Below are positions 1 through 38,143 of a DNA stretch of 38,143 nucleotides, one piece after another (positions within the stretch are counted from its first letter, which is position 1; the number at the start of each line of letters is the position of its first letter). Origin of the DNA: a virus; IMG/VR virus record IMGVR_UViG_3300046522_000633, positions 1 through 38,143 of that record, one strand, 5' to 3'. The notes beneath the pieces are model-generated. The model was not told the origin of the DNA and ran no database searches. It saw nothing but the letters and a program-made list of their open reading frames with translations. Position numbers and translations under genes: made by a program.

Positions 1-453
1 GGCGGCGGCTTGGCCGCGTCCTTTCTCTTGAAGGCGCGCGACCTCGGCCTTCCGCTGCCCGAAGCTTGCGTTCTGGCAACGCCGGAAGCCGATCTTACCG
101 AGAGCGGTGACAGCTTTGAGACGAACGACACGATCGACGTCGTGCTCAAGCACCGGCTTACTGAGACGATCGCACTCTACGCCAACGGCCATGATCTCCG
201 AGACCCCTACCTCTCGGCCGTGTTCGGGGACTTCAGCAAAGGCTTTCCGGCAGCAATGCTGGTCTCCGGAACACGCGACCTGTTCCTGTCTAACACCGTC
301 ATTCTGCATCGCGCGCTGTTGCGGGCAGGATGCGAGGCTGAGCTGCATATTTGGGAAGCGATGCCGCACGGTGGCTTCTTCGGTGCACCTGAGGACGGTG
401 AGGTTCTAATGGCCGAGGCTGCGTTCATCCGACGAAAGCTGCGGATCGATTAA
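1..453 (+). CDS. alpha/beta hydrolase, 3' part (5' end outside window)
   Basis: The reading frame is open from the first base and stops with TAA at 451-453. It starts with Gly-Gly-Gly-Leu-Ala-Ala, which matches the residues just after the nucleophile Ser in the GDSAGGGLA elbow of hormone-sensitive-lipase-type hydrolases, so the Ser itself is just outside the window. Family features that remain are a strand ending in LVSGTRDLF (acid-residue region) and MPHGGFF, with the likely catalytic His. These enzymes hydrolyse carboxylic esters in the cytoplasm; the substrate cannot be told. The C-terminus looks complete. This is host sequence flanking the mobile region. Confidence 0.8.
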   Translation, partial: GGGLAASFLLKARDLGLPLPEACVLATPEADLTESGDSFETNDTIDVVLKHRLTETIALYANGHDLRDPYLSAVFGDFSKGFPAAMLVSGTRDLFLSNTVILHRALLRAGCEAELHIWEAMPHGGFFGAPEDGEVLMAEAAFIRRKLRID

Positions 454-533
454 TGGGCAAGCAGTAGAAAAGACTGGCATCCAGCTACCGAATGGAGCTT
501 CCCTTCAGTTCGCCATTCTGATTCAGCGTCGGC

Positions 534-1056
534 ATGAGCCGATATGATCTGACCGACTTCGAATGGCGCGTGATCGAGCCGCTGTTGCCCAACAAGCCCC
601 GAGGCGTGCCGCGCGTTGATGATCGGCGGGTACTGAACGGTATCTTCTGGGTTCTGCGGTCCGGTGCGCCTTGGCTCGATCTACCCGAACGCTACGGTCC
701 GCGAACCACCTGCTACAACCGCTTCGTGCGATGGCGGAAAGCGGGCGTATGGAACCGGATGATGGATGCCATCACCGCCGCGCACGATGGCGACATCCAG
801 ATGATCGATAGCACTTCCGTTCGCGCCCACCAGCAGGCCGCAACGGCAAAAAGGGGGATCGAGATCATTGTCTCGGTCGTTCCCGAGGCGGGCTCACGAC
901 CAAAATCCACGCGGTCGTCGACAGGCAAGGCCTCCCGATCCGCCTGAGCCTGACCGCCGGACAAAGCCACGACGGCCAAGCTGCCGATGGCCTGCTCGAT
1001 CATGTTGGTGCCGGAACGATAGTGCTGGCCGATAAGGCATACGATGCCGACCGCAG
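534..1056 (+). pseudogene. IS5-family transposase, two frames, 3' truncated
   Basis: The first frame (534-947) has the IS5/IS427-type N-terminus (YDLTDFEWRVIEPLLP, then GAPWLDLPERYGP) and the first catalytic Asp in MIDSTSVRAHQQAA. The rest of the DDE domain (GGLTTKIHAVVD, LSLTAGQSHD, LADKAYDAD with the second Asp) continues in the -1 frame from about 857. The switch falls at A5G5 (848-857), compatible with programmed frameshifting known in this IS group. The match stops just after DAD near 1056, so the third acidic residue (Glu) and the 3' end are missing. The enzyme would move its own IS; here it is dead. Confidence 0.85.
534..1056 (+). mobile_element. truncated IS5 (IS427-like) element
   Basis: This is the element carrying the broken transposase. 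The right end is lost within the DDE domain. I could not identify terminal inverted repeats or a target duplication, so the left boundary is only known to lie between 454 and 534. It sits exactly between the host hydrolase gene and the first prophage signals. Confidence 0.7.
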
Positions 1057-1164
1057 GTGCAAGTGTTCATCCACGAGAGCCGGCGAGACGAACTGCGCGC
1101 TGCAGCCCGCAAGATGGCGCGGCCCCGGCGGGCCAGTCGACCCTCGAGGCTTCCCTCCAACTGA
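1054..1164 (+). pseudogene. C-terminal remnant of an unidentified gene fused to the IS end
   Basis: Immediately after the transposase match an open frame of 36 codons runs to TGA 1162-1164. It reads like a basic, Ala/Arg-rich C-terminal helix (IHESRRDELRAAARKMARP). The pattern resembles the helix after the active-site Tyr of some phage integrases, but the Tyr and all other catalytic residues are absent, so this is a guess. It is transcribed towards, and stops at, the terminator of the opposing prophage operon, as the last gene of a module would be. Confidence 0.3.
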
Positions 1165-1192
1165 AAAGGGCCCGGGGAATGACCCCGAGCCC
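1164..1192 (-). terminator. rho-independent terminator of the dam-Q-P operon
   Basis: On the minus strand GGGCTCGGGG, a 5-base loop and CCCCGGGCCC (one mismatch) are followed directly by TTTT. It lies 30 bases past the stop of the methylase gene. Confidence 0.8.
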
Positions 1193-1221
1193 TCGACCTC
1201 AACCTTTGCCAGTGCACCCGC

Positions 1222-3212: not shown

Positions 3213-5071
3213 GCGAAAATCTCCAGTGTTGAGCCGCCGCCCACGGGTTCGTTGATATCGAGCGGTTCGAAGAAGAGGGCGTGCATCGTCGCCCAGGCGA
3301 GGTCGGCATGACCCACGCCGCCGGAACGGCTCGCGACGTAAGTGACCTGCGTGCCGCCCTTCGTGATTTCGGGCCGGATCGCCATGAAGGCGGCCATCAT
3401 GTCCAGCCAGCCCGCGTCGAATTCGAGACGGCCGGCGGTGACGACGTTCTTCGCCTTCAGCACCATCGCCGTCTTGGTCTGTACGGAATAGGTGATCGGG
3501 TGCGCAGTCGGGAACCACTTCGCTACCAGCTGATGCACGGCCTTGCCGGCGCCGGTGACGTCGATGCCGATCTTGATGACGGTGTACTTGCCGCACATCT
3601 CCTTGATCGCGTCGGCCTGCTCGTCGAACTGCTTACCCTTGAGGCGCTTCTTTTCGAGGATGCGGAACTTGCCGCCCGGCTTCGTGGGGGCGGCGATGGC
3701 CACAAGCGCCGCGTCGTCGCCCGTGGCGCTCTCGCTGGCGTTGGGGTCGTAGCCCAGCCACACCTCGCCTTCGTAGGGCCGCAGGGCGTAGGGCTGGTAA
3801 TCGCGCCAAGTGTCCCAGCTGTCGACCATGCAGCGGCGCATCGCCTGGAATGGGAACATCGACTGGCTGTCGTCGAGGAAGATGCAGCGGAACAGGTTGT
3901 CGAATTCGTCTGTGGCGTATTCCAGCTGCAGCCCCTCGACGTTGACGAGATTGAACCCGCCTTCGACCGCGTCGTAGACCGTGACGATCTGGCGCCAGAT
4001 TGCATCGGGCCCCAGCGCGCCGCGCTTGAGCGCCTCGTGGCTGACATCGATCTTGAGACGGTCGGCCTTGGCGCGACGCTTGTTGACCCGCTCGCCCGTC
4101 CACATCGGATAGGCCTCGTGCGCCAGCGTGCTCGGCGTCGAGAACAGCGTGCGGGTGAAATGCTCGTGGGTCGCGATGGCCGAGGCGACCTTGAACAGTT
4201 CCTCGAACCCGTAAATCCAGAAGCATTCGTCGATGATGACGTCGCCGGTGTACCCCTGCGCCGTCCTGTAGTTCGTGCCGAGGAAGTAGAGCGTCACGGC
4301 CTCGAGCGCTTCGCCATCCTCGTCCTCGCCGCGCTGAATCACCATGGGATCGCCGGCAAGCGCGATGCCGCAGACCTTCTGCACCCACTGGATGATGTAG
4401 TTGCGGAAGATGTTCGCCTGCGCACGCGATGCCGAGATGAAGATCTGGCTCTTGCCGGTCTCCAGCGCCACCAGCAGGCGCTCGCGGGCGAAGTACCACG
4501 TGGCGCCGATCTGGCGTGATTTTAGGATCATGCGCGTGCGCTGCGACGTCGTCGCCTGCCACGCCTCTTGGTGCCCGAACAGGCCGTCATCGAGATCCGC
4601 GCGCAGCCTCGCCAGCATGTCGCGCGTGATCAGGTTCTTGGTCTTCTCCTTCTTGGCGTTGGTCGCCTTCGCGCCGTTCGAGCGGGCCGGATTGAGGTCC
4701 GCCTCGTTGCCGCCGTCCGCGTAGCGCGCCACGCGCGCCAGGCGCTCGAACTGGCGGCCGAGGAGGTCGATTTCCTTGAAGTCGCCCCCCGTCTTGTTCT
4801 CCTTGGCCATCAAGGTCAGGTAGCGTTCGAGCGTGCCTTCCTCGGCGCGCTGGATGGCGGGCGCGTCGTCCCATTTGTGGCGCGCCTTCCACGAATAGAC
4901 GGTGTGGTAGGGAACCCCGATTTCCTCGGCGACCTGCTGGATCGTCCATCCCCGCCAGAACAGCGAACGCGCCATGGTGCGCTTGGCGACGATCGCGGGC
5001 ACGGCGCCGGGCGCGGGCGTTTCGCCCACGGCCTCGTCATCGACCTCCACCGCTGCTGCTTTGCTCGCCAT
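3209..5071 (-). CDS. P: terminase large subunit, ATPase/nuclease (P2 gpP-like)
   Basis: 620 aa, the DNA-packaging motor. An N-terminal helix-turn-helix (about residues 34-68, WTIQQVAEEIGVPYHTVYSW) is followed by the ATPase with the P2-type Walker A KSRQIGAT (184-191) and Walker B VIIDECFW (278-285). The C-terminal RNase H-like nuclease has WLGYDPNASES (Asp442) and IGIDVTGAG (Asp504). It docks on the portal, cuts concatemers at cos and translocates DNA. It is first in its operon, 45 bases below the dyad at 5116-5139, and translationally coupled to the portal gene by ATGA. Confidence 0.95.
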   Translation of the reverse strand: MASKAAAVEVDDEAVGETPAPGAVPAIVAKRTMARSLFWRGWTIQQVAEEIGVPYHTVYSWKARHKWDDAPAIQRAEEGTLERYLTLMAKENKTGGDFKEIDLLGRQFERLARVARYADGGNEADLNPARSNGAKATNAKKEKTKNLITRDMLARLRADLDDGLFGHQEAWQATTSQRTRMILKSRQIGATWYFARERLLVALETGKSQIFISASRAQANIFRNYIIQWVQKVCGIALAGDPMVIQRGEDEDGEALEAVTLYFLGTNYRTAQGYTGDVIIDECFWIYGFEELFKVASAIATHEHFTRTLFSTPSTLAHEAYPMWTGERVNKRRAKADRLKIDVSHEALKRGALGPDAIWRQIVTVYDAVEGGFNLVNVEGLQLEYATDEFDNLFRCIFLDDSQSMFPFQAMRRCMVDSWDTWRDYQPYALRPYEGEVWLGYDPNASESATGDDAALVAIAAPTKPGGKFRILEKKRLKGKQFDEQADAIKEMCGKYTVIKIGIDVTGAGKAVHQLVAKWFPTAHPITYSVQTKTAMVLKAKNVVTAGRLEFDAGWLDMMAAFMAIRPEITKGGTQVTYVASRSGGVGHADLAWATMHALFFEPLDINEPVGGGSTLEIFA

Positions 5072-5115
5072 GGGCCCACGCTACGGGCGAAATCCGCCTC
5101 GCTCTAACGAGTGGG

Positions 5116-5139
5116 GTTGTGGAGCGCGGGGGCCACAAC
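5116..5139. promoter_or_regulatory. putative Ogr-type late activator site between P and O
   Basis: A 24-bp interrupted dyad: GTTGTGG, 10 bases, CCACAAC (perfect 7-bp arms). Its centre is 57 bp upstream of the terminase start and about 115 bp upstream of O. A near-copy lies between J and V. P2-family late promoters are activated by a zinc-finger protein bound to an interrupted dyad about 55 bp upstream of the transcription start; assigning this dyad to Ogr is inference. Confidence 0.6.
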
Positions 5140-5242
5140 GCGCACGCGTTGCGAAGAAGCCTCCAACCCTGTCCTTTGGCCTCACTGAATTTGGCCAGCC
5201 TCGGCAACGGGGGGCCGCGAACCCGAGGACCGGAGCACACCG

Positions 5243-6127
5243 ATGGCAACCGCTACCCCCCGCTTTTTCCGCGTGGCCGTTGAAGGCGACACGACCGACG
5301 GCCGCAAGATCACGCGGCAGGACATTCTCGACTGCGCCGAAACCTTCAACCCGCAGCTGTACGGCGTGCGCATCAACCTCGAGCACTATCGCAGCATCAT
5401 CCCCGGCGGCCCGTTCGACATGCTGGGCGACGTCACCGCCGTGAAAGCGGACGAGGTCGATCTGCCGGTGGGCAACGTGACCCAAAAGGTGATGGGCCTG
5501 TTTGCCGCGATCACCCCGCTGCCCGCCTTCGTCGACATCAACAAGAAGAAGCAGAAAGTCTTCTCGTCGATCGAGATCGGACAGAACTGCCGGGGGACCG
5601 GCAAGGCTTTCCTTGTCGGCATGGCCGCGACCGACAGCCCCGCATCGTTCGGCACCGAGGCGCTGGAATTCGCGGCCAAGACGCCGGGGTTCTATTCGAA
5701 CCGCAAGCTCGCGGCAGACAACCTGCTCTGCCAGGCGCACGAAATCCCGCAGGAGGTTTTCACCGCCGAGCAGCCCGGCGTCGAGGCTGACCCCACGGGC
5801 ATCCTAGCTTCGGCCAAAGCCTTCTTCGACCGCTTCACCAAGGCGCCAGAGGCGGTCCAGCAGCAGGGGCAGACCCCGCCCGAGGTTCAGCCCCCCGCCG
5901 CTCCCGTCGCTGCGCCGCAGGGCGAGGCGCTGGCCGCCTTCGGCATGATGTTCGGCCAGATGTCCACCGCGATCGACAGGATCGCAACCGACAACACCGC
6001 CGCGCTCACCAAGCTGACCGCCGATCTCGCGGCGCTGACCACGAAGGTCGACGCCACGCCCAGCGGCAGCTTCACCCAGCGCACGCCCGCCACGGGCGGC
6101 GCGGCCACCGTTCGTACCGACTGCTGA
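5243..6127 (+). CDS. O: capsid scaffolding protein and maturation protease (P2 gpO-like)
   Basis: 294 aa. The N-terminal half is the gpO serine protease: Asp19 in TDGRKI, His48 in LEHYRS and Ser108/109 in KVFSSIEIG lie at the positions of the P2 catalytic Asp-His-Ser set. The C-terminal half is Ala/Pro-rich followed by a helical stretch (MMFGQMSTAIDRIATDN) that acts as internal scaffold for capsid assembly. The protease then cleaves scaffold and capsid protein. It is first gene of the rightward head operon; the next start is 52 bases after its stop. Confidence 0.93.
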   Translation: MATATPRFFRVAVEGDTTDGRKITRQDILDCAETFNPQLYGVRINLEHYRSIIPGGPFDMLGDVTAVKADEVDLPVGNVTQKVMGLFAAITPLPAFVDINKKKQKVFSSIEIGQNCRGTGKAFLVGMAATDSPASFGTEALEFAAKTPGFYSNRKLAADNLLCQAHEIPQEVFTAEQPGVEADPTGILASAKAFFDRFTKAPEAVQQQGQTPPEVQPPAAPVAAPQGEALAAFGMMFGQMSTAIDRIATDNTAALTKLTADLAALTTKVDATPSGSFTQRTPATGGAATVRTDC

Positions 6128-8861: not shown

Positions 8862-9347
8862 ATGAAGAAACCCGGCCTGCTGCGTGAAGCCATCGCCGCT
8901 CTTATGCCCGAGACCGCCCGTGATCCCGACCGCCTGGCCATGTGGGTCGAGCGCGGGAACGTGCGAGCCACCGGCAACCGGCAGCGCGGCTTCTCGTGGG
9001 AATACGATCTGATCGTGGTCGCCGAGAACTACACGGGCGATCCGGCGCAGCTGTTCTTCGTCGTGGTCGACTGGCTACGGGTGCAGCAGCCCGATCTGCT
9101 GAAGGCCAACGGCCCCGGCTTTCCGTTTGAAGTCGATGTGATCGACGTGAGCACGGTCGATGTGCGGATGACCTTGCCGCTGCGCGAAGTTGTGACCGCC
9201 GCCCAGGTCGATGGCGAGTGGCAGCTTACCGTCGCGGACGAAACGGTTCCCCTATTTCCCGACGATACTCCCCTGCGCGCCAACGAGGGGCCGATCGCCT
9301 CCATTTGGGCAAGGGGTGGTGACGTACCATTTCAGGTCGCGCCCTGA
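8862..9347 (+). CDS. R: tail completion protein R (P2 gpR-like)
   Basis: 161 aa. It starts MKKPGLLREAIAALMP as expected for gpR, followed by LAMWVERGNV and the WEYDLIVVAENYTGDP strand. The acidic motif VVVDWLRVQQPDLL is typical. It caps the tail end and helps join it to the head. The stop overlaps the ATG of S. Confidence 0.9.
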   Translation: MKKPGLLREAIAALMPETARDPDRLAMWVERGNVRATGNRQRGFSWEYDLIVVAENYTGDPAQLFFVVVDWLRVQQPDLLKANGPGFPFEVDVIDVSTVDVRMTLPLREVVTAAQVDGEWQLTVADETVPLFPDDTPLRANEGPIASIWARGGDVPFQVAP

Positions 9348-9814
9348 TGGCTGACGGCTTCGCAGAACTCGAGTCCTTCCTGACGGCCGAACTGGCGAAG
9401 CTCTCGCCTGCCCGACGCCGCCGGATCACGCGCAAGATCGGCATGGAAATCCGCAAGGCCAATGCGAAGCGGATCGCCGAAAACATCCAGCCTGACGGCA
9501 GCGCAATGCAGGCTCGCAAACCGCGCACTCTCTCGGCGGGCAAGGGCGCCATCAAGCGCGGCCGGATGTTTCGCAAGATGCGCCTAGCAAGGTCCTTCAA
9601 GGTCGCTCCCTCGGCAAATGGCGTCTCAGTCGGTTTCGAGGGGCCCGTAGCGCACACCGCCCGCGCCCACCAGTACGGCCTTACCGACTTCGTCGGCCGT
9701 ACCGAAGCGGGCAAAACCGTGCGGGCCAAATACCCCCAGCGCGTGCTGCTCGGCTTCGCGCCCGAAGACCTTGAGATGATCGCCGATACCGTCCTCGCCA
9801 TGTTGGGCGAATAG
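9347..9814 (+). CDS. S: tail completion/virion morphogenesis protein S (P2 gpS-like)
   Basis: 155 aa. The N-terminal helix has LSPARRRRITRKIGMEIRKA, and then IQPDGSAMQARKPR, GRMFRKMRLARSFKV, VAHTARAHQYGL and a C-terminal PQRVLLGFAPEDLEMI; this order is diagnostic for the gpS/virion morphogenesis family. It acts with R in tail completion. It is the last gene of the rightward head block; the next gene points the other way only 28 bases later. Confidence 0.92.
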   Translation: MADGFAELESFLTAELAKLSPARRRRITRKIGMEIRKANAKRIAENIQPDGSAMQARKPRTLSAGKGAIKRGRMFRKMRLARSFKVAPSANGVSVGFEGPVAHTARAHQYGLTDFVGRTEAGKTVRAKYPQRVLLGFAPEDLEMIADTVLAMLGE

Positions 9815-9842: not shown

Positions 9843-10772
9843 TTAACCGGCCCTTAACTCGATCCCGAACTGTTGCACAGTCGACCCTTGACCATCCCAA
9901 CTTAGAACGATGCGGGCATCGCGATAGGGACCGTTGAAGTCGATGACACCGGGTCGGCGGCGTCTTAATGTCCGCTCGTTCGTCATTTCCCGAGCGAGCG
10001 GAACGAGCAGTGTATCAAATTGAACAGTGCCAAAGTTTGTTCTGATGCCAACACAGTCACCCGTCGATCGATCGCTCAATGGCATGATGGAAATCGCCTT
10101 TTGAGGAATTTCACGCTCGTTGCGGCCGAAGAACAGCCCACTGTTAGTGGGCAGGACTCCTGTCGATAACGCATTAATGATCGTCTGTTCGGGCAAGCGC
10201 CGAAAATCCTTCAGCGGCTGTCTTCCAGCGGCGGCGATGCGGGCATGAAACACGCCCGCAAGGGTTTTGACCATCCAAATCTCCAGCGCCGCGCCGCTTG
10301 CAAGATAGTAGGCCGGCCGTCCTGGAGAGCGTCGTGAGGTCGCAAAAAGGGGCGCCTCAACGAAGCATCGGAATGCGTGGGACGCCAGATCATCTATCGG
10401 GGACAGGGCCGTGTTGTGCCGAGTGCACAGAATGTTTGACGCAAGAGCGTTTATGGGCAGCTCTTTCATTTCCCCGTCTGGCAAGAACGGCAGTCCGCTG
10501 ACTTTGAAGGTGGGAAATTGTTTGAGAATAGCCGCAGAGATGTAGTGCTCTCTCGAAATAGTTTTCGAGCAGTTGTTAGTCGCTGCCATGTAGCATTTTG
10601 GATGTGAATATTGGGTCTGATCGCCCGGCGGCGCCAGACTCGGCATCTTCACCATGGGGAGTTTGCAACGCCCAACCTTGCAACAGGAGCCGAACTTGTA
10701 TTCGCTTCCGCAAGGGCAGGGATCGCTATCGCCCCACGGGGAAACGAACTTGTCTGGTGCCAGCTTTGCCAT
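9843..10772 (-). CDS. SEC-C zinc-motif protein with HNH-like Cys/His cluster (accessory gene)
   Basis: 309 aa, function unknown. The N-terminus has a SEC-C metal-binding motif (CPCGS at 19-23, Cys30-Cys31). A second cluster follows: Cys60, Cys68, SREHY (His76) and LCTRHNTALSPID (Cys116, His119, Asn120, Asp127), an arrangement like HNH/treble-clef nucleases. The C-terminal half is unassigned. It is antisense to the surrounding phage genes, has lower GC and is placed between tail genes and the partition cassette, as typical for a moron. A DNA- or RNA-acting accessory or defence role is possible but not shown. No strong ribosome site is seen before the chosen ATG. Confidence 0.75.
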   Translation of the reverse strand: MAKLAPDKFVSPWGDSDPCPCGSEYKFGSCCKVGRCKLPMVKMPSLAPPGDQTQYSHPKCYMAATNNCSKTISREHYISAAILKQFPTFKVSGLPFLPDGEMKELPINALASNILCTRHNTALSPIDDLASHAFRCFVEAPLFATSRRSPGRPAYYLASGAALEIWMVKTLAGVFHARIAAAGRQPLKDFRRLPEQTIINALSTGVLPTNSGLFFGRNEREIPQKAISIMPLSDRSTGDCVGIRTNFGTVQFDTLLVPLAREMTNERTLRRRRPGVIDFNGPYRDARIVLSWDGQGSTVQQFGIELRAG

Positions 10773-10837: not shown

Positions 10838-10881
10838 TTGCCCGGCCAATGGTATACACGTATACGTGTATACTTATATAC
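10838..10881 (+). promoter_or_regulatory. parA promoter overlapped by 8-bp-phased GTATAC operator repeats
   Basis: A -35 candidate TTGCCC (10838-10843) and -10 TATACG (10861-10866) are 17 bases apart. Hexamers GTATAC start at 10852, 10860 and 10868 and ATATAC at 10876, all with an 8-bp step. The first three form a perfect 22-bp palindrome (10852-10873) covering the -10 box. This is the expected form of an autorepressor and centromere site for a ribbon-helix-helix partition protein. Confidence 0.7.
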
Positions 10882-10895
10882 TATCGGGGAATGCA

Positions 10896-11537
10896 ATGAA
10901 GGTACTGGCCGTCCTCTCGCAGAAAGGCGGGGTCGGAAAAACGACGCTCGCCACGTGCCTCGCGGTCGCCGCCGAACAGGCCGGGCAAAGCGTCGCCATC
11001 ATCGATATCGATCCGCAGGCCACCGCATCGTTCTGGAAGGACGTGCGCGAGCAGGAAACGCCCGCCGTGATCTCGGTGCAGCCGATCCGGCTTGCCGCGA
11101 TGATAAAGGCCTGCGCCGACGCCGGCACCGAACTGGTCATCATCGACGGCGCAGCCATAGCGCGCGACGTGACGTTCGAAGCGGCGAAGCGCGCCGACTT
11201 CGTCATCGTGCCCACCCGAACCGCCGTCTTCGACACCATGAGCATGACCCACACGCTGGACGTGGTGCGCGAGCAGGGCAAACCCTGCGCCGTCGTGCTC
11301 ACCTTTGTGCCGCCACGCGGGCAGGAGACGGCCGACGCGATCGAAGCCATCGCCCAGCTAGGCGCCCCAGTCTGCCCGGTGACGATCGGCAACCGCAAGG
11401 CGTTCTTCCGCGCCCAGGCATCCGGGCAGGCAGTTCAGGAATTCGAGCCCGGAGGCGCTGCCGCAGATGAAATCGCGCGCCTATTCGAGTATACACGTAT
11501 AGCCCTATACGATGAAGGAGCGAACCATGGCCGCTAA
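10896..11537 (+). CDS. parA: ParA/ParF-like partition ATPase
   Basis: 213 aa, the size of small (type Ib, ParF-like) ParA proteins without an N-terminal DNA-binding domain. The deviant Walker A is SQKGGVGKTTLA near the N-terminus, followed by VAIIDIDPQATAS and LVIIDGA. Such ATPases form ATP-dependent gradients or polymers on the nucleoid and, with a centromere-binding partner, segregate plasmids. The frame is open to 10611, but the ATG at 10896 starts directly before the Walker A strand and lies below the promoter. The 3' end carries a second operator copy and overlaps the next gene by 11 bases. Confidence 0.88.
   Translation: MKVLAVLSQKGGVGKTTLATCLAVAAEQAGQSVAIIDIDPQATASFWKDVREQETPAVISVQPIRLAAMIKACADAGTELVIIDGAAIARDVTFEAAKRADFVIVPTRTAVFDTMSMTHTLDVVREQGKPCAVVLTFVPPRGQETADAIEAIAQLGAPVCPVTIGNRKAFFRAQASGQAVQEFEPGGAAADEIARLFEYTRIALYDEGANHGR
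11489..11510. promoter_or_regulatory. second operator copy in the 3' end of parA
   Basis: GTATAC (11489), GTATAG (11497) and CTATAC (11505) repeat the same 8-bp phasing; 18 of 22 positions match the upstream palindrome. It lies directly before the AAGGAG and ATG of the RHH gene, so binding could also limit expression of that gene. Confidence 0.65.
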
Positions 11538-11838
11538 CTCGCTGCAGGCGATGCTCGATCGCGCGAAGGCGCAAGAGGAAACGGCCCAGCCAAAGGCGAA
11601 GCCGGTGGCAACGAAGGCTGCACCCCGCGCGGCACGCAAGACGCCCACGGAACCCATTGCCGGTGCGCAGCCGAGCCGGTCGGGAACGAAACTGATCGGC
11701 GGCCACTTCGCACCGAAAGTCTCCACGCAGCTGCGCATTATCGCGGCCGAGGAGGGAACGACCATCCAAAGCCTGCTAGCCGAAGCGCTCGACGATCTTT
11801 TTGTAAAAAAGGGCAAGGCGCGGATTTTGAAGCGATAG
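11527..11838 (+). CDS. ribbon-helix-helix partition partner (ParG/ParB-like)
   Basis: 103 aa. The first about 55 residues are a flexible Ala/Lys/Pro-rich tail; the C-terminal domain (LIGGHFAPKVSTQLRIIAAE, then GTTIQSLLAEALDDLF) reads as a short beta strand and two helices, the ribbon-helix-helix fold. Partition proteins of this layout dimerise on phased short repeats and stimulate the ParA ATPase through the N-terminal tail. AAGGAG 7 bases before the ATG at 11527 decides the start over an ATG at 11512. The gene overlaps parA. Inferred ligand: the GTATAC repeats. Confidence 0.8.
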   Translation: MAANSLQAMLDRAKAQEETAQPKAKPVATKAAPRAARKTPTEPIAGAQPSRSGTKLIGGHFAPKVSTQLRIIAAEEGTTIQSLLAEALDDLFVKKGKARILKR

Positions 11839-11963: not shown

Positions 11964-12299
11964 ATGAGCATCGAAAACGGTACTTACGTAGTTACTTTCG
12001 GGACACCCGCAGGACAGGGCGGCGGCGTTATCATCCTTCAGGATGGTAAACTGCGCGGCGGCGACGGCGCTATGATCTATATCGGCAGCTACAACGAACC
12101 TCAGCCAGGACACATCGACGCGGATGTGCGCGTGGAGACGCATACCCAGTGGCCGGGGCAGACGTCGGTATTCGGTCTCCCAACGGTGAACATCAAGCTG
12201 GCAGGCAACATCTCGGGAGGCTCTGGGACGGTTCAGGGCCAGGCAGCAGAGGCGCCAAGCGTACCGTTCACCGCCAAGATCGAGCGCTTTTGCGATTGA
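11964..12299 (+). CDS. GrlR-like small beta-barrel regulatory protein
   Basis: 111 aa. The pattern NGTYVVTFGTPAGQGGGVII, DGKLRGGDGAMIYIGSY and QTSVFG matches small proteins related to GrlR, a beta-barrel that binds partner regulators. No DNA-binding motif is seen. It is monocistronic with an excellent AGGAGGT site that is buried in a hairpin, and it ends at a strong bidirectional terminator. Its role in the phage is unknown; control of host or prophage regulators by protein binding is a reasonable guess. Confidence 0.6.
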   Translation: MSIENGTYVVTFGTPAGQGGGVIILQDGKLRGGDGAMIYIGSYNEPQPGHIDADVRVETHTQWPGQTSVFGLPTVNIKLAGNISGGSGTVQGQAAEAPSVPFTAKIERFCD

Positions 12300-26250: not shown

Positions 26251-29055
26251 TTAAAATCCGTATTTCGCTCGGCGCAGTCGGAAGGCGTTTTCACCGCCCT
26301 CCATTATTTGTTTTATCGCTTCGCGTGCCGCCGGCAGGTCGATCGCCCCTACGCCCTTGATTGTGCCACGGGATTGATCGCCCGTCGTCCGGTATCCAAA
26401 CCACGCCACTAGCTCCGCGTCGCCATTCACGACGAGGTTGGCATTGTGGCTGGCAAAAACGATTTGCCGGAGCCGCTTCGCATCCCAGAGCTGATTGACG
26501 ATTTCGAGCATGACCGGGTTGTCGAGGTCTTCTTCGGGCTGGTCGATGATGAGTGGCGGCCCTGCTTGGTTGAGCAACGTTTTTAGAAGCGCCGTCGCCT
26601 GCTGGCCGGCCGAGGCGTTTTTGAAGGGGATGTACTCCCCTTCACGCGCCCGGAACTCATAAACAGGGACCGAGGCGATCGGCGTTAGCGACAGCACCAG
26701 CCAGTTCTCCGGCGTGAAGTGCTGCGCGATCCTGTCAATGTCGCCGACGTTCAGCCCAAGGCCCAGCAGGCCGACCCCTCCCGGCCTGTTGCCAAGCGGG
26801 CCGCGCTCGGCATCATAGTCCGCCAAGCCTTCCAATTCCGCCAGCGCCGCCGTCCAAGATGCTTTTGGATCGGCCGCGCCCGTAATCCCCTCGCCCAGCG
26901 CTTCGAGCTTCGCCGATTGAACACGCGAGCCCTGCAGCGCTGTGCGCAACGTACTAACGAAGGCGACGGGATCTGCGTAACGCTTGACGGCCACGCGGAT
27001 GAGGCCGCCCGATCGGGTCGTCAGCTCGGCACACTCGCGATCCACCAGATCATCATGCTCGGCATGTGCCCCCAGCCATTCATCCCGCGCGGCGGTATAG
27101 TTCTCATCTGCGGTCGCCAGCGTCGCCAGCATCTCGCGTACTCGCGTCGTTTCGTCGGTCAGCTCGGCAACACGTGCCTCCAGCGTTCGGAGCTGCTGCA
27201 GCTTTTCGGTCTGCGACGATGACCGCTCCATCGCAGCGCTATATTCATCCTGAAAGGCGGAGTGCCCCGCCTCCCACGCATCCCAAGGGCCAGCGGCCAC
27301 CTCCCCGCCTTGGAACGCGCCCGCCGCCGCGCCCATTTCGTCGAGCGAGATCAGCGCGGCCTGCAGCATCGCGTCGTATTGGGCGCGGGCCTGGTCGAGA
27401 GTTTCCTTCATGCCGGCGGGTTCTGCCGGTACGGGCTGCATGGCGGCGCGTTGGGCCTGGACGAGCTGGCGCAGTTCACGCGCCTTCTGGCTAATCGTGC
27501 CTGCCCCTACTTTCCACGAGGCCACGAGAGAGCTTGCGGCATTGTAATGCTGGCCCTGCTCCAGCAGCGCCCGATCGGCGTCCGACAGCCCCGAGAGCGA
27601 GGCGCGGATCGTATTCGCCTGTTCTGTGATCGAGCGTTCTTCCAAGACCCGGTTATGCAGCGTCCGCGACAAATCGCGGAAACGCTGGCGGGTTGCATAG
27701 GCCTCCCGGATCCGGTTCGCCCGATCGTCGGCTTTCCGCTGCAGCCGGTCAAGATCGCCCTTGATCGGCGCGGTGATGAAGCGGGTCAGCTCCTCTATGC
27801 GTACGCTCACGTCACTGAGCTGCTTCTGGCTATAGGCCTGTATCGGAAGAAGCGCCCTTACTTCTTCTTCGGTGCAGGGCTGCAGCGCGGCCGCGCCGAT
27901 CTTCATCTGGACGCTGCCATCGACACTTGTCCGCCGGACCAGATGGGGAACCCCGTTGAGAACATACATCACATCGACTGTGGCACCGTGGGGCTTCAAC
28001 GTGCCGTCGATCAAGCGCAGGCGTCGCGCCTGATAGTTCGGCGTTTCGTCCTCATCGCCGGTGGGCGGCTGATCGCAGAGCGCCCAGCGGATATACTCCA
28101 GCACCGTGGACTTGCCGGTACCGCGACCGCCGATGAGGGAGTTGTATTGCGGGTTGAAGTCCAGATCGAGCGGCCCGAGGAACGTGGAATTGCTGACGCT
28201 GACGCTGGCGATGTAGGTTTCCGGCACGTGGGGTGAATCATGTGCGACGCGGGATTCCTGCGCAAGGCAGGCCTGCCGCAAAGCTTCCGCGGTCGGCGTC
28301 GCCCACTTCAGCCAAGTCGATGGTACGCCGAGCGTGGTGTGATCGTCGCGGCGCGTGTCCGAGGTTTGGATGCAGGCGATACGCTTGTGACCCCATGCGC
28401 CATCAATGCCGGCCAGCTTGTTTTTCGTCCCCTGCTTCAGATTAGCAAACAGCCCGTCGCTGTATCCGCCGACGCATGGCATCTCGATATACTTGTCGGT
28501 CTGACCTGCGCGCAGGAGAGAATGCTGCCCCTCATCAGTGACGTTTGGAAGAACAATGTAGCGGCCGCGCAGATATTCGTGTGCGTCGAGCTTCGCCTTC
28601 AAATCTGAAAAGGTCGTGATGGTGCCGAGGCGCACAACATCCCGGACCTTCGACTGTGCCGCCTCGTTCTGCGTGATCGCCAGCGCATTGATGGCCAGCG
28701 AAAACATATCATTGGGGAAGTCAGCATCGAAGATGATGATGGCTTGGCATGGAACGCCGAGAGTCAGTTCCATGCCAGGGAAGACGATGAGCTTGCTTGC
28801 TGGATCGAGCGCCGTGCCGTCTTCCGCCAACTCCTCCTCCGCTGCCGTCCGGATGAAGGGGAGAAATGTCATGCAGTGATGATCGGTGATGGCAACGGCC
28901 TGAAGGCCCTTTTCTCGGCAGGATTCAACAAACCGCCGACCGTAGGCAAGCCGATCTTTGTCTGTTAAAGCATCCGGTCCAGCCCAGCGGCGATCACGCG
29001 GGGTGTGAACCTGAAAATCGCACTTATAAAAATGCGCGCCCTTGTCCAAGATCAT
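26251..29055 (-). CDS. TrlF-like PHP-domain plus SMC/ABC-type ATPase (defence-type)
   Basis: 934 aa from ATG 29055 (preceded by AGGGGAT); an upstream ATG at 29118 is possible. The N-terminal PHP metal-dependent phosphoesterase domain has FQVHTP (His17), AITDHH (58-60), FPGMEL and SDTRRDDHTTLG. It is followed by an SMC-like ATPase: Walker A GGRGTGKST (about 309-317), long coiled coils with many charged heptads (400-700), signature NASAGQQ (813-819), Walker B LIIDQPEEDLDN (about 835) and SHN switch (about 869). This is the TrlF architecture found in defence contexts; it likely senses DNA or a phage state and cleaves nucleic acid through PHP. It stands alone in its transcription unit. Confidence 0.88.
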   Translation of the reverse strand: MILDKGAHFYKCDFQVHTPRDRRWAGPDALTDKDRLAYGRRFVESCREKGLQAVAITDHHCMTFLPFIRTAAEEELAEDGTALDPASKLIVFPGMELTLGVPCQAIIIFDADFPNDMFSLAINALAITQNEAAQSKVRDVVRLGTITTFSDLKAKLDAHEYLRGRYIVLPNVTDEGQHSLLRAGQTDKYIEMPCVGGYSDGLFANLKQGTKNKLAGIDGAWGHKRIACIQTSDTRRDDHTTLGVPSTWLKWATPTAEALRQACLAQESRVAHDSPHVPETYIASVSVSNSTFLGPLDLDFNPQYNSLIGGRGTGKSTVLEYIRWALCDQPPTGDEDETPNYQARRLRLIDGTLKPHGATVDVMYVLNGVPHLVRRTSVDGSVQMKIGAAALQPCTEEEVRALLPIQAYSQKQLSDVSVRIEELTRFITAPIKGDLDRLQRKADDRANRIREAYATRQRFRDLSRTLHNRVLEERSITEQANTIRASLSGLSDADRALLEQGQHYNAASSLVASWKVGAGTISQKARELRQLVQAQRAAMQPVPAEPAGMKETLDQARAQYDAMLQAALISLDEMGAAAGAFQGGEVAAGPWDAWEAGHSAFQDEYSAAMERSSSQTEKLQQLRTLEARVAELTDETTRVREMLATLATADENYTAARDEWLGAHAEHDDLVDRECAELTTRSGGLIRVAVKRYADPVAFVSTLRTALQGSRVQSAKLEALGEGITGAADPKASWTAALAELEGLADYDAERGPLGNRPGGVGLLGLGLNVGDIDRIAQHFTPENWLVLSLTPIASVPVYEFRAREGEYIPFKNASAGQQATALLKTLLNQAGPPLIIDQPEEDLDNPVMLEIVNQLWDAKRLRQIVFASHNANLVVNGDAELVAWFGYRTTGDQSRGTIKGVGAIDLPAAREAIKQIMEGGENAFRLRRAKYGF

Positions 29056-29118
29056 ATCCCCTAACGTTCTCAAATTACGTTCTACTCCAACGGGGTGCAG
29101 AAGCAAATATGGCGACAA

Positions 29119-29967: not shown

Positions 29968-32900
29968 ATGGATATTCACGGTTATCTCGCAGAAATTCGA
30001 GCGCTTTATGCCAGCGGGATTTCTACTGAACACAGTTTCCGGCCCGCCTTGGTCAGATTATTTGGCTCCATCGCCCCCGGGCTGACCGTTATCAATGAAC
30101 CAAAGCACCTTACCGACGTTGGCGCGCCGGACTTCGTGTTCAACCGGGGTGAGGTCGCCATCGGTTGGTGCGAGGCCAAGGACATCGGCAAGGACGTGCG
30201 AAAATTCGCCGCGACCGATTACAGCAAAGCCCAGAAAGAACGCTACAAGAAGGGCCTGCCCAACCTGATCTACACCAACGGACTGGACTTTGAATTCATT
30301 CGCGACGGCGAGGTCATCGATTTCATTACCGTTGCCGACCTTATCCCGTCACTGCCTGCGCGGGCCGAAAACTTCCCCCTTCTAGAAAACCGGCTGCGTG
30401 ACTTCGCACAGGTGACCCCGCTTAGCGTCACTTCGTCGGCAAAGCTCGCGGCGATGATGGCGGGCAAGGCCGCGATCATAAAGGACATCATGGGCCGCGC
30501 CCTTGTGGCCGATATGAAAGCCAGAGACGCCACCGGCACGGCAACCGACCTGATCGGGCAGTATGAAGCGTTCAAGACAAGCCTGATCCACGACATTACC
30601 GCGGAGGAATTTGCCGACGTCTACGCAGAAACCATCGCCTACGGCCTGTTTGCCGCGCGCCTGCATGACGAAACGACGGACACGTTCACCCGTGCCGAGG
30701 CGCTTGACCTGCTACCCAAGACAAATCCGTTCCTGCGCGAACTGTTCATCTACATCGCCGGTCCGAATTTGGATGAGCGTCTGCGCCGCGTGATCGATGA
30801 ACTGTGCCACGTATTTTGCGCCACTAACATGGAGCGGGTGCTACGCAATTTCGGCAAGATCACCTCGCGGCAGGACCCGTTCTTGCATTTTTACGAGGAT
30901 TTCCTGGCCGAATATAACCCGGCCAAGCGCAAGGCTCGCGGCGTTTGGTACACGCCCGAACCCGTGGTTAATTTCATCGTGCGCGCCGTGGACGAGGTAC
31001 TGAAAACGGAATTCGGGCTGGCCGATGGTTTGGCCGATACCTCGAAAATCACTATTGATTGGGACACCGGGCAAAACGACCCCAAAACGGGTAAGGCCGC
31101 GACCATCAAAAAGGAAGTCCACCGCGTCCAGATTCTGGACCCAGCAACTGGCACCGGGACCTTCCTTGCCGAGGTGGTTAAGCTCGTGTCTGAACGGATC
31201 AAGGGCGTCGCCCCGGGGCAGTTGTCGGCTTATATCGAGCGCGATTTGATCCCGCGCCTGCATGGGTTCGAATTGCTGATGGCCTCCTACGCCATGTGCC
31301 ACATGAAGCTGGACATGATCCTAACCCGGCTGGGCTACAAACCATCGGCCAACCCGCCGCGCCTTGGGGTTTACCTCACCAACTCGCTGGAAGGGGGGGA
31401 GCGCGTGTTGCAGACCTTCGATTTCGGCATTCAGCGCGCTATTACCGAAGAGTCCAAGCAGGCCAACAACATCAAGCGCCAAACCCCTATCATGTGTGTG
31501 ATCGGCAACCCGCCCTATTCGGGCCATTCATCCAATAGGGGAGCATGGATCGAAAAGCTGATGACCGACTATAAGGTCAGCCCGGAATTGAAACGTCCAG
31601 CACAGGCCAAATGGCTATCGGACGACTACGTCAAATTCGTGCGTCTCGCCGAACACATGATCGAAAAGAACGGTGAGGGCGTACTTGGGTTCATCACCAA
31701 TCACGGTTATCTGGACAACCCTACCTTTCTCGACATGCGGCACCATCTGCGTCAGACATTCGACCGGATTTACGTGCTCGACCTGCACGGCAACGCCAAG
31801 AAAAAGGAAGTTTGCCCAGACGGGACCCCTGACAAAAACGTGTTCGACATTCAACAGGGCGTGGCGATAATCCTCGGCGTGAAGCGGCGAGCAATGACGA
31901 CAAAGGCCAAGCCACTTGCGCAAGTGCTGCACGGCGAATTGTGGGGCGACCGCGAAACGAAATATCGGCAGTTATGGGATGGCACCGCACCGGCTTTGAT
32001 CACGAGCGATGTTTCGCCCGAGACCGCGCCGTGGCGCTTCAAGCCGACCGACAAGGCCTTGGAAGCGCGCTATCTTTCGGGCTTTTCTGTTGCCGACCTG
32101 TTTTCGCCCAATGGCAGGCCAGCACCTGGCATTGTCACCACGCACGACGAGTTCGCCATTTCGTGGAACGCCGCAGAATCCGCCGAAAAGGTCGAGCGCC
32201 TGCTGGCGACAAAAACTGAAGCAGACGCCCGTCAGCTTTTTCGACTCTGTTCGCAAAGCCAGTGGAATTATACGGGGGCTAAAGTCGGGCTTGCGGACTT
32301 CAAGTGGCGGCAGGCGATCACTCCGATTGCCTACCGGCCTTTCGACACACGTTTCACTGTCTACAATTCTCACGTAGCGGTGCATCGCCGGGAGCGCGTG
32401 ATGGCACACATCTTTAAGCGTCAAAATTTGGCGCTGCTTGTGACGAAAGCTGTGCGTGACACCAAATACGCACACTGCTTTTTGACCGACACGTGCAATG
32501 AGGTGATCTTCCTTTCTGGCGTTTCCGCATCAAACGCGATGAGCCTCCCTCTCTACCTTTTCCCTGAAGAAGGTACCTTGGATCAATCCATCCGCGTGAA
32601 CTTCGAACCGGAGCTATACGGCCAAATCCGCACGACGGCAGGCCTCTCCAGCACCCCGGCTATACCTGATGGCACCGATAAATTCCGCAACGCCACCGGT
32701 GATGCCCGCCCTGATGAGATCAAGGTGTTCGATTACATCTATGGCGTTCTGCACAGCCCGGCTTATCGCGCCACCTATGTGGAATTCCTGAAGACTGGCT
32801 TCCCCCGCATTCCTTTCCCGGCGAGCGCGGAATCCTTCCGCGCGATCAGCGAACAGGGCGAGGCGCTACGTCGCCTGCACCTGATGGAGGACGCCGCCAT

Positions 32901-33180
32901 CGGTGCAACACCCTATCTCTTCCACGGTGACGGCGACAGCGTGGTGGAAAAGCCACGCCATGAGAACGGGAACGTCTGGATCAATGCCGACCAGTATTTT
33001 GACGACGTCCCCGCTGTTGCATGGGAATTTCACATTGGCGGCTACCAGCCAGCGCAAAAGTGGCTGAAAGACCGCAAAGGGCGAGTCCTGACCTATGATG
33101 ACATTCGCCATTACCAGCGCATGATCAAGATCTTGACCGAAACCGACAGCATCATGCATGGCATCGACGTGCCGCTCTAG
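29968..33180 (+). CDS. single-chain restriction-modification enzyme (type ISP-like, without helicase)
   Basis: 1070 aa. The N-terminus holds a PD-(D/E)xK nuclease: PDFVFN (Asp55) and WCEAKD (Glu69, Lys71). A helical region (130-320) leads to an N6-adenine methylase with GVWYTP (325-330, motif X), ILDPATGTGTFL (389-400, SAM motif I) and GNPPYSG (NPPY 514-517, motif IV). The C-terminal about 350 residues resemble the type ISP target-recognition/specificity region (GVLHSPAYRATYVEFLKTGF; WKD-like WLKDRKGR). No Walker A helicase motif is seen, so it is shorter than full ISP enzymes of about 1600 residues. It would methylate self DNA and cut unmodified invaders. Confidence 0.87.
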   Translation: MDIHGYLAEIRALYASGISTEHSFRPALVRLFGSIAPGLTVINEPKHLTDVGAPDFVFNRGEVAIGWCEAKDIGKDVRKFAATDYSKAQKERYKKGLPNLIYTNGLDFEFIRDGEVIDFITVADLIPSLPARAENFPLLENRLRDFAQVTPLSVTSSAKLAAMMAGKAAIIKDIMGRALVADMKARDATGTATDLIGQYEAFKTSLIHDITAEEFADVYAETIAYGLFAARLHDETTDTFTRAEALDLLPKTNPFLRELFIYIAGPNLDERLRRVIDELCHVFCATNMERVLRNFGKITSRQDPFLHFYEDFLAEYNPAKRKARGVWYTPEPVVNFIVRAVDEVLKTEFGLADGLADTSKITIDWDTGQNDPKTGKAATIKKEVHRVQILDPATGTGTFLAEVVKLVSERIKGVAPGQLSAYIERDLIPRLHGFELLMASYAMCHMKLDMILTRLGYKPSANPPRLGVYLTNSLEGGERVLQTFDFGIQRAITEESKQANNIKRQTPIMCVIGNPPYSGHSSNRGAWIEKLMTDYKVSPELKRPAQAKWLSDDYVKFVRLAEHMIEKNGEGVLGFITNHGYLDNPTFLDMRHHLRQTFDRIYVLDLHGNAKKKEVCPDGTPDKNVFDIQQGVAIILGVKRRAMTTKAKPLAQVLHGELWGDRETKYRQLWDGTAPALITSDVSPETAPWRFKPTDKALEARYLSGFSVADLFSPNGRPAPGIVTTHDEFAISWNAAESAEKVERLLATKTEADARQLFRLCSQSQWNYTGAKVGLADFKWRQAITPIAYRPFDTRFTVYNSHVAVHRRERVMAHIFKRQNLALLVTKAVRDTKYAHCFLTDTCNEVIFLSGVSASNAMSLPLYLFPEEGTLDQSIRVNFEPELYGQIRTTAGLSSTPAIPDGTDKFRNATGDARPDEIKVFDYIYGVLHSPAYRATYVEFLKTGFPRIPFPASAESFRAISEQGEALRRLHLMEDAAIGATPYLFHGDGDSVVEKPRHENGNVWINADQYFDDVPAVAWEFHIGGYQPAQKWLKDRKGRVLTYDDIRHYQRMIKILTETDSIMHGIDVPL

Positions 33181-36012: not shown

Positions 36013-36185
36013 CGCCCATCGCCCACCACGTCCGCGAGGGCCTTGAAGCCGTCATCGGCGAGCGCCTGCGCGGCGCCGCCCCGGCCCGCAACCCTTACAC
36101 CCCGAAATCCCGGCGCGGCCTCTTCTGGCAGCGCGGTGCCGATCACGCGCAGGCGACGATCGACGAACTCATGAAGATCGTCTGA
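36009..36185 (+). CDS. small hypothetical early protein
   Basis: 58 aa, basic. IAHHVREGLEAVIGERLRG followed by NPYTPKSRRGLFWQRGADHA and a C-terminal helix. No domain recognised. Chained to the neighbours by ATGA/TGATG overlaps. Confidence 0.6.
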   Translation: MTPIAHHVREGLEAVIGERLRGAAPARNPYTPKSRRGLFWQRGADHAQATIDELMKIV

Positions 36186-36682
36186 TGACCGCAGAGACCG
36201 ACCACTACGGCACCGCCGTCAAGCTCGTGCGCGAGCACGACAAGGCCTCCACATCATGGCTGCAGCGCCAGATCGGCGTGGGCTACAACACCGCCGCCAA
36301 GCTGATCGAGCGTATGGAAGCGGACGGCATCGTTTCGGCGCCCGACCACGTCGGCCGCCGCTTCGTCCTCGGTGATGACGGCCAGGCGATCAACCCGCCC
36401 GCGCCGGTCGAGCAGCAAATGACCATCCCGGTCGACCTGCCGAAAGAGAACCGCGCCGCTGACGATCGCCTGCGCCTTCTGATCGAGCGCGTCGAGCGCC
36501 TCGAGGAAGAGAAGAAGGGCATCAGCGACGATGTCCGTGACATCTTCAACGAGGCGAAGGCGGTCGGATACGACGTCAAGATTATGCGTCAGATCGTCCG
36601 CATTCGGAAGATGAAGCCCGATGATCGCCGCGAGCAGGACATGCTGCTCGATACCTACAAGTGCAGCCTCGGGATCGACTGA
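36185..36682 (+). CDS. FtsK-gamma winged helix fused to GapR (DUF2312)
   Basis: 165 aa. Residues about 6-62 match the gamma domain of FtsK: YGTAVKLVREHDKASTSWLQ, then RQIGVGYNTAAKLIERMEAD and GIVSAPDHVGRRFVL. In FtsK this winged helix reads polar KOPS sequences. Residues about 95-165 match GapR: LLIERVERLEEEKKGISDDV, FNEAKAVGYDVKIMRQIVRI and RKMKPDDRREQDMLL. GapR is an alphaproteobacterial nucleoid protein that clamps overtwisted DNA. A Pro-rich linker (NPPAPVEQQ) joins them. The fusion would combine sequence-specific and topology-specific DNA binding; its job in the phage (replication, packaging orientation or takeover of host segregation) is inference. Confidence 0.88.
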   Translation: MTAETDHYGTAVKLVREHDKASTSWLQRQIGVGYNTAAKLIERMEADGIVSAPDHVGRRFVLGDDGQAINPPAPVEQQMTIPVDLPKENRAADDRLRLLIERVERLEEEKKGISDDVRDIFNEAKAVGYDVKIMRQIVRIRKMKPDDRREQDMLLDTYKCSLGID

Positions 36683-37534: not shown

Positions 37535-37958
37535 TTATCGCACATTCCGAGTTATTCGGGGGCAGCGCTGGGGGCATTCCCCGCGATGCAATCTCCAAAA
37601 CTAGCGAATTTCGGGGCAATTGAAGAATGCACTCAGAATCCTGTAGCCGGCACCATTTCCGCACATCGAAGGACAATCGGGAGCGGGCGGCGCCGAGCAC
37701 TCTTGCTCCGCCGCGCGCGTTCAGATCTGGCTGTCGAGCCAGGAGGCCGTGCAGTGAGACTTGCGCGTGCACCTGGCATCGCCGTGCGCGCAATTCCAGC
37801 GCCGTAAGGCATTGATCTAAAGGCATAAGACATGAATGATCCGGCGCATCTTGGGTGATTACCACTAGGATTCGCCGATTCAATATTCAGCTAATGCAAT
37901 TAACGTGTTTTAATGTGTCTCGCTTGGCGAGCGGCTCGGCGCAAACCCGAGCCCCTGC
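37535..37958. other. gene-free right end of the prophage
   Basis: Starts with a weak hairpin CGATAA/TTATCG (37522-37540) around the AlpA stop, then small dyads. Open frames here (for example 37419-37883 on the minus strand) show no family features. The right attachment site should lie here, but no direct repeat with the left end was found by eye. Confidence 0.5.
37933..37953 (-). terminator. possible terminator of the MFS gene
   Basis: GGCTCGG / CCGAGCC with a 7-base loop just past the stop of the transporter gene, plus a second small stem CTCGC/GCGAG next to it. No T-run, so a weak call. Confidence 0.4.
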
Positions 37959-38143
37959 CTATTTCTCCGCGACCCATTCCTGGCGCAGCGCAGGCCCGGC
38001 CAGCGTCATGAGCACAGCCGCCAGCAGGTACAGCACCAGCGCGAACAGCATCGAGTAGCGCAGCGATTCCGCGCCCCATACCGGCACCAGCGCCTCCGAC
38101 AGCGCGCCTAGCGCGTAGATGCCGCCGCCGAGGCCGATCAGGT
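37959..38143 (-). CDS. MFS transporter, C-terminal end (rest outside window)
   Basis: Sixty codons are visible, ending at TAG 37959-37961. The protein has LIGLGGGIYALGALSEALVP and a last membrane helix MLFALVLYLLAAVLMTLAG, then ALRQEWVAEK. The Gly-rich helix and final helix are typical of the C-terminal half of major-facilitator sugar/aromatic-type permeases; substrate unknown. It is host DNA right of the prophage. Confidence 0.75.
   Translation of the reverse strand, partial: LIGLGGGIYALGALSEALVPVWGAESLRYSMLFALVLYLLAAVLMTLAGPALRQEWVAEK

Follow-up and report, generated by a model that had tools for sequence, protein, structure and literature searches.

By examining a window of 38,143 nucleotides (the whole stretch of DNA analysed here, which is the whole IMG/VR record of a P2-like phage with terminase, portal, tail, Ogr-like and AlpA-like genes), we found a parA gene and a gene for a ribbon-helix-helix (RHH) protein accompanied by two arrays of short boxes set at 8-bp steps. 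We consider it likely that together they form a pUT1-family partition module resembling type Ib, which is carried by a P2-like prophage in a Sphingomonadales tRNA-Thr gene, is autoregulated, and is used while the phage DNA is extrachromosomal. Both genes and both arrays are intact in the window:

Array U, 10852..10881, + strand: GTATAC/GTATAC/GTATAC/ATATAC, palindromic, spaced by exactly 8 bp, lying on the predicted promoter of parA
parA, 10896..11537, + strand: ParF-like Walker ATPase of 213 aa, intact, with the deviant Walker A motif KGGVGKT
Array J, 11481..11510, + strand: CTATTC (degenerate)/GTATAC/GTATAG/CTATAC in 8-bp steps, in the parA 3' end, upstream of the RHH gene start
RHH gene, 11527..11838, + strand: 103 aa, Pfam PF20605 (E 3e-25), with the predicted DNA-contacting strand TKLIGGHF; proposed centromere-binding protein and repressor

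Box arrays and the parA/RHH pair

Reading the sequence, we found the boxes of array U to begin at 10852, 10860 and 10868 (GTATAC) and at 10876 (ATATAC), separated by ac, gt and tt, and the good boxes of array J to begin at 11489 (GTATAC), 11497 (GTATAG) and 11505 (CTATAC), separated by ac and cc. A preliminary description of this DNA had listed these seven hexamers, and the sequence matches it in both letters and coordinates. It had also placed the second array just before the RHH gene: the array does precede that gene, but it lies within the last codons of parA (10896-11537) and not between the two genes. The RHH gene, which sits downstream of parA, most likely starts at 11527, with AGGAG in front.

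When the window was scanned for runs of at least three boxes, each with at most one mismatch to GTATAC, U and J were the sole runs at 8-bp steps, and steps of 6, 7, 9, 10 and 11 gave no run at all. Dinucleotide shuffling of the window, repeated 200 times, likewise never produced a run of at least three boxes at 8-bp steps. With two mismatches allowed, array J gains its fourth, degenerate box (CTATTC, at 11481), and relatives carry a good box at this position. The scan over the 38 kb found no third array elsewhere in the window, and for want of such an array the idea that the RHH protein also controls other phage genes was dropped. Beneath array U, a promoter-like match at 10853-10882 is the only one in the region; the proposal that the boxes act as an operator fits the position of this predicted promoter.

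The ParA protein starts with MKVLAVLSQKGGVGKTT and is a short ATPase with a deviant Walker A motif and without an N-terminal DNA-binding domain. It matched CbiA and AAA_31 in Pfam and a ParA-like partition protein in PHROGs, and its best solved matches were a ParA (5u1g) and ParF of TP228 (4dzz). Against the NCBIfam model NF041546 (ParA family partition ATPase) it scored 167.5 bits, below the curated cut-off of 180 bits. A search of solved chains with the RHH protein returned nothing up to an E of 1, and thus no ParG by sequence, and none of 50,697 deposited phage records had a match to it either. Its AlphaFold model has a low mean pLDDT of 65, and the weak fold matches were mostly RHH proteins (Arc, CopG, MatP), none of them significant. 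In type Ib systems the RHH partner has a flexible N-terminal tail with an arginine finger; the tail of this protein, where model confidence is low, holds a conserved NSLQAxLxRA motif, from which the arginine is missing in the relative L011. Judged by sequence, the pair is a ParF-like ATPase with an RHH protein of PF20605. Its earlier assignment to the ParF/ParG kind is borne out by the ATPase, which is short and has no N-terminal DNA-binding domain, and by the presence of an RHH partner, but not by homology of that partner to ParG. Because no ParG was found by sequence, the RHH protein would be ParG-like in its working and not a member of the ParG family.

Relatives and the conserved 8-bp phasing

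Compared with the ParA of the window, those of Acetobacter, Kozakia and Komagataeibacter plasmids are ~80% identical, and those of sphingomonad plasmids such as pUT1 75-78%. On those plasmids the ParA gene is followed by an RHH gene of the same family and usually then by repA. The partition system had been described as new, a claim that we could not uphold since in sphingomonads and acetic acid bacteria plasmids of the pUT1 type have the same parA-RHH pair and boxes beside repA. The module is a phage-borne member of the alphaproteobacterial plasmid parA-RHH-repA family (pUT1, Acetobacter). With the pUT1-type module (Sphingobium pUT1 and pPDL2, Acetobacter pAPA01-030, and Kozakia and Komagataeibacter plasmids; ParA 75-80% and RHH 54-60% identical) it shares the gene order, the overlap of the genes, and 8-bp TATAC boxes before parA and at the parA end. 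In contrast, repA adjoins the module on the plasmids, with a third array between it and the RHH gene, whereas the phages are without this array and repA (PF10134) was found in none of them. Because the phages miss both, the third array is probably tied to repA. Among the loci L163-L170, which have this 8-bp array between the RHH gene and repA (for instance five TATAC boxes from 3426 in L170), L166 keeps it though an IS element occupies the expected place of repA.

In IMG/VR, ten phage contigs (the window included) have ParA relatives at E below 1e-70. parA and the RHH gene are linked: a PF20605 partner is present in 10 of the 10 phage records with a close ParA and in none of 38 P2-like terminase relatives without parA. 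A P2-like terminase was found in seven of the ten contigs, as far as the records extend. Close ParA relatives are rare among Sphingomonadales genomes (3 of 398). The ParA tree places the window and phage L003 as a pair next to eight pUT1-type plasmids, and the window, L003 and these plasmids nest in a clade that is otherwise phage, with three phage/plasmid label changes. Given this nesting, the plasmids may have got the module from phages; the direction of transfer between phages and plasmids cannot be told from the ParA tree, and the module is not a one-off phage passenger. Capture of the cassette from plasmids was considered and dropped, as this direction is unsupported when the plasmid clade is nested among phages.

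The 8-bp phasing, on whose conservation the preliminary description had staked its reading, is conserved in relatives at both positions. In 34 loci, 4-mer matches at distance 8 were far above shuffles (z 22 upstream and z 27 at the junction), and among distances 4 to 20 only 16 showed a comparable excess besides 8. When near-copies were removed, leaving 24 non-redundant parA/RHH loci, the 8-bp period still had a z of 20.1 for U and 16.9 for J, while control stretches gave 0.1 inside parA and 2.9 upstream. The phasing set includes the cyanobacterial plasmids L232 and L240. Iterons are thus present beside homologous genes of other prophages and plasmids, where a search for them had been suggested, with the spacing kept and the letters varying. 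Since the box letters differ between relatives, the spacing is the conserved feature.

Array J moreover reveals a constraint on parA at the DNA level. The rare codons ATA and CTA/TTA stand at fixed places of the array in nearly all TATAC-type relatives, window included. Elsewhere these codons are avoided (ATA in 7 of 245 isoleucine codons, CTA and TTA in 18 of 411 leucine codons, over eleven window genes), and the rest of parA likewise avoids them. An 8-bp step cannot follow the reading frame, and that rare codons coincide with it gives good grounds for seeing the array itself as under selection.

TATAC boxes occur in the window, in L003-L008 (those of L007 being TATATG-like) and on the pUT1-type plasmids. 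The other box types are GTAGAC/GTCGAC in phage L010, TCGAC in plasmids L234, L241 and L248, CATGCA/CATGTA in L236 and L237, GTGAAC/GTCCAC in L233, and TGTA-type in the cyanobacterial plasmids L232 and L240. In RHH proteins, every other residue of the strand faces the DNA. In the strand K-x-I-x-G-x-F, the x residues are L, G and H in TATAC-type proteins, Q, A and H in phage L010, Q, A and F in plasmids L234, L241 and L248 (TCGAC or TAGAC boxes), A, T and Y with CATG boxes, and A, S and Y with GTGAAC/CACGTG boxes. As for the third strand residue, L or M goes with TATAC boxes and Q with TCGAC/TAGAC boxes. The box letters thus appear to vary together with the residues of the RHH beta-strand that are predicted to face DNA. 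The RHH domain of L010 is 62% identical to that of the window and 45% to that of L241; because it is nearer to the window, the shared Q and the shared boxes cut across the overall relationship. This box/strand code is a pattern over few independent lineages and not a statistical proof. It would provide a testable DNA code, made of palindromic 6-bp boxes at strict 8-bp steps, for the large and experimentally uncharted PF20605 group of RHH proteins. With box letters tied to few strand residues, centromeres and incompatibility groups could be predicted from sequence.

Integration of the carrier and use of the module

The two ends of the window show where the carrier lies:

attR-like site, 37636..37655, + strand: last 20 nt of tRNA-Thr(TGT), the joint of prophage and host chromosome
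Host chromosome flank, 37656..38143, no strand: end of an MFS transporter gene (C-terminal part, minus strand, about 37959-38141) with 92% identity to Sphingomonadales genomes
Other end, 1..1200, no strand: alpha/beta hydrolase gene, 3' part (1-453), and remnant of an IS4/5-type transposase (about 534-1190), replacing the integrase end

Collinearity with two Sphingomonadales genomes ends at 37636, in the 3' end of tRNA-Thr(TGT), and in both genomes this tRNA gene adjoins the same MFS gene. The prophage is integrated at a tRNA gene, and the carrier is not an extrachromosomal replicon in this assembly. No integrase was found in the window, which we attribute to loss of the left end, where the IS and hydrolase sequences stand; relatives L175 and L176 have the integrase end that the window is missing, and because of this gap the prophage may be defective. 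A search for the empty site on the left yielded hydrolase relatives of 56-66% identity only, with no MFS gene within 10 kb on either side in six genomes. In two other phages with parA and the RHH gene, a tyrosine integrase immediately adjoins a tRNA gene, tRNA-Pro in L005 and tRNA-Asn in L010. From the tRNA junction and from these integrases beside tRNA genes, the window, L005 and L010 are taken to be integrating prophages. We also considered that parA and integrase might be mutually exclusive, and ruled this out as three parA phages have tyrosine recombinases.

Among known systems, RHH dimers align on short tandem boxes in omega/delta of pSM19035 and in MetJ, whose boxes are palindromic and 8 bp long. 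The tandem short boxes of the window are alike, whereas the 7-bp length of the omega repeats and the missing ParA partner of MetJ set both apart. With TP228 ParF/ParG/parH (type Ib), the window shares a short ParA without an N-terminal DNA-binding domain, a small RHH partner downstream, and repeats upstream of parA, which in the TP228 system act as both operator and centromere (review PMC5016525). It differs from TP228 by an RHH protein without a ParG match, a second array inside parA, and palindromic hexamer boxes.

We propose that each palindromic 6-bp box is bound by one RHH dimer and that the dimers stack at 8-bp intervals. On array U, they would cover the parA promoter and repress it. The nucleoprotein arrays at U and J would together serve as the centromere, stimulating the ParA ATPase and being carried along the nucleoid, and the excised, replicating phage DNA would in this way be shared between daughter cells. 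Because the carrier integrates, the benefit must fall when its DNA is free, that is after infection, during excision and replication, or in an episomal side-population. The srpMRC partition locus similarly stabilises the excised form of SXT/R391 ICEs, which live integrated (PMC4489591). It is, as here, a partition system on a chromosome-integrated element that needs stability when excised, but it has a type II actin-like motor and its carrier is a conjugative element, not a phage. Several observations count against partition of excised phage DNA: in this assembly the prophage sits in the chromosome, where it would need no partition, and with its integrase end missing it may be defective; there are only four boxes in array U and three good ones in array J, and the third array of the plasmids is absent; and not all relatives keep the arginine that the RHH tail was expected to have, L011 being without it.

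The main rival, which is live although we find it rather unlikely, is that the module serves to evict plasmids, with the phage boxes and RHH strand competing for the partition machinery of pUT1-type plasmids (partition incompatibility). The window and these plasmids share the strand TKLIGGHF and TATAC boxes and occur in the same bacterial order, and eviction would give integrated prophages a reason to retain a par module. SGI1 offers a precedent, as its parS-like sites expel the helper IncC plasmid (PMC10954446); however, SGI1 needs the sites only, whereas the phages retain an intact ParA and RHH protein, and the boxes of L007 and L010 differ from the common plasmid type. The question thus raised is whether tRNA-integrating prophages keep a plasmid partition module for stability at the excised stage or for plasmid expulsion. 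A broader scenario, to which we give a low probability, is that integrating P2-like phages of alphaproteobacteria carry working cassettes of centromere, centromere-binding protein and ATPase whose box code diversifies under conflict with plasmids, that same-type plasmids are evicted, and that the 8-bp grammar, in which box letters can be exchanged, is an incompatibility code common to plasmids and prophages.

It is improbable that the lysogen is instead a free low-copy phage-plasmid whose module partitions it at every division, as in the 36.9-kb P2-like plasmids of Zymomonas. One of these (L230, CP006891.1), a complete circular plasmid, encodes a P2-like portal protein and terminase; parF and a gene for a small partner stand next to the portal gene, and an 8-bp periodic stretch lies upstream. 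That stretch is AT-rich and of low complexity, hence weak evidence for an 8-bp step, and the Zymomonas ParA is only about 31% identical to that of the window, with a different partner strand. The XerD-like recombinase immediately upstream of parA in L004 recalls those that plasmids have for dimer resolution, and the window has no detected integrase; this absence is accounted for by the lost left end, and none of the phages has RepA. A free phage-plasmid as the default reading was set aside for this element on account of the right end of the window, which passes from the tRNA-Thr 3' end into chromosome, and L005 and L010 again combine the parA/RHH pair with an integrase beside a tRNA gene. We regard it as very improbable that the pair has no part in partition and is instead regulatory or toxin-antitoxin cargo, its RHH protein acting as an autorepressor in the manner of an antitoxin. 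The Pfam family is indeed named Antitox_RHH, array U stands on the predicted promoter, and the locus is one of variable cargo, but the partner is a ParA ATPase with all its motifs and no toxin, the pair adjoins repA on plasmids, and an array inside parA would be superfluous for simple autorepression. Finally, TATA-like letters are common in promoters, and the repeats might be put down to chance or to generic AT-rich promoter sequence. This is already contradicted, and has practically no probability, given the shuffles without any such run, a phasing conserved among relatives with different box letters, and an array with rare codons in GC-rich coding sequence.

Other genes of the prophage

The site of the cassette, with the tail-completion gene (9347-9814) on one side and the lysis genes on the other, is one of variable cargo. 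In phage L003 this tail/lysis site holds the same cassette, while in L214, the nearest relative of the window, it is taken up by an IS remnant and an acyltransferase-like gene. The cargo genes that flank the cassette, at 9843-10772 (-) and 11964-12299 (+), had no Pfam or PHROGs match; judged by eye, the product of the latter may begin in the manner of GrlR-type regulators. A large single-chain restriction-modification enzyme of type ISP/IIG (29968-33180, +) and its neighbour, an SMC-like AAA ATPase protein (26251-29118, -; best PADLOC match Ppl, E 2e-40), form a defence island in the prophage.

At 36185-36682 (+), an FtsK gamma domain is fused to a GapR-like DNA-binding domain, and DNA homologous to this segment is also found beside parA in L005 and L006. 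The FtsK gamma domain of the phage might act on host Xer recombination or on the handling of phage DNA. In L005, an HTH protein (MxAVSFGxLLAG...) is encoded between the RHH gene and the integrase (4487-5353, -), and a protein of the same type, absent from the window, adjoins the integrase in L175 and L176. With a length of 288-312 aa across L005, L175 and L176, it is a candidate for a replication or control protein of these prophages.
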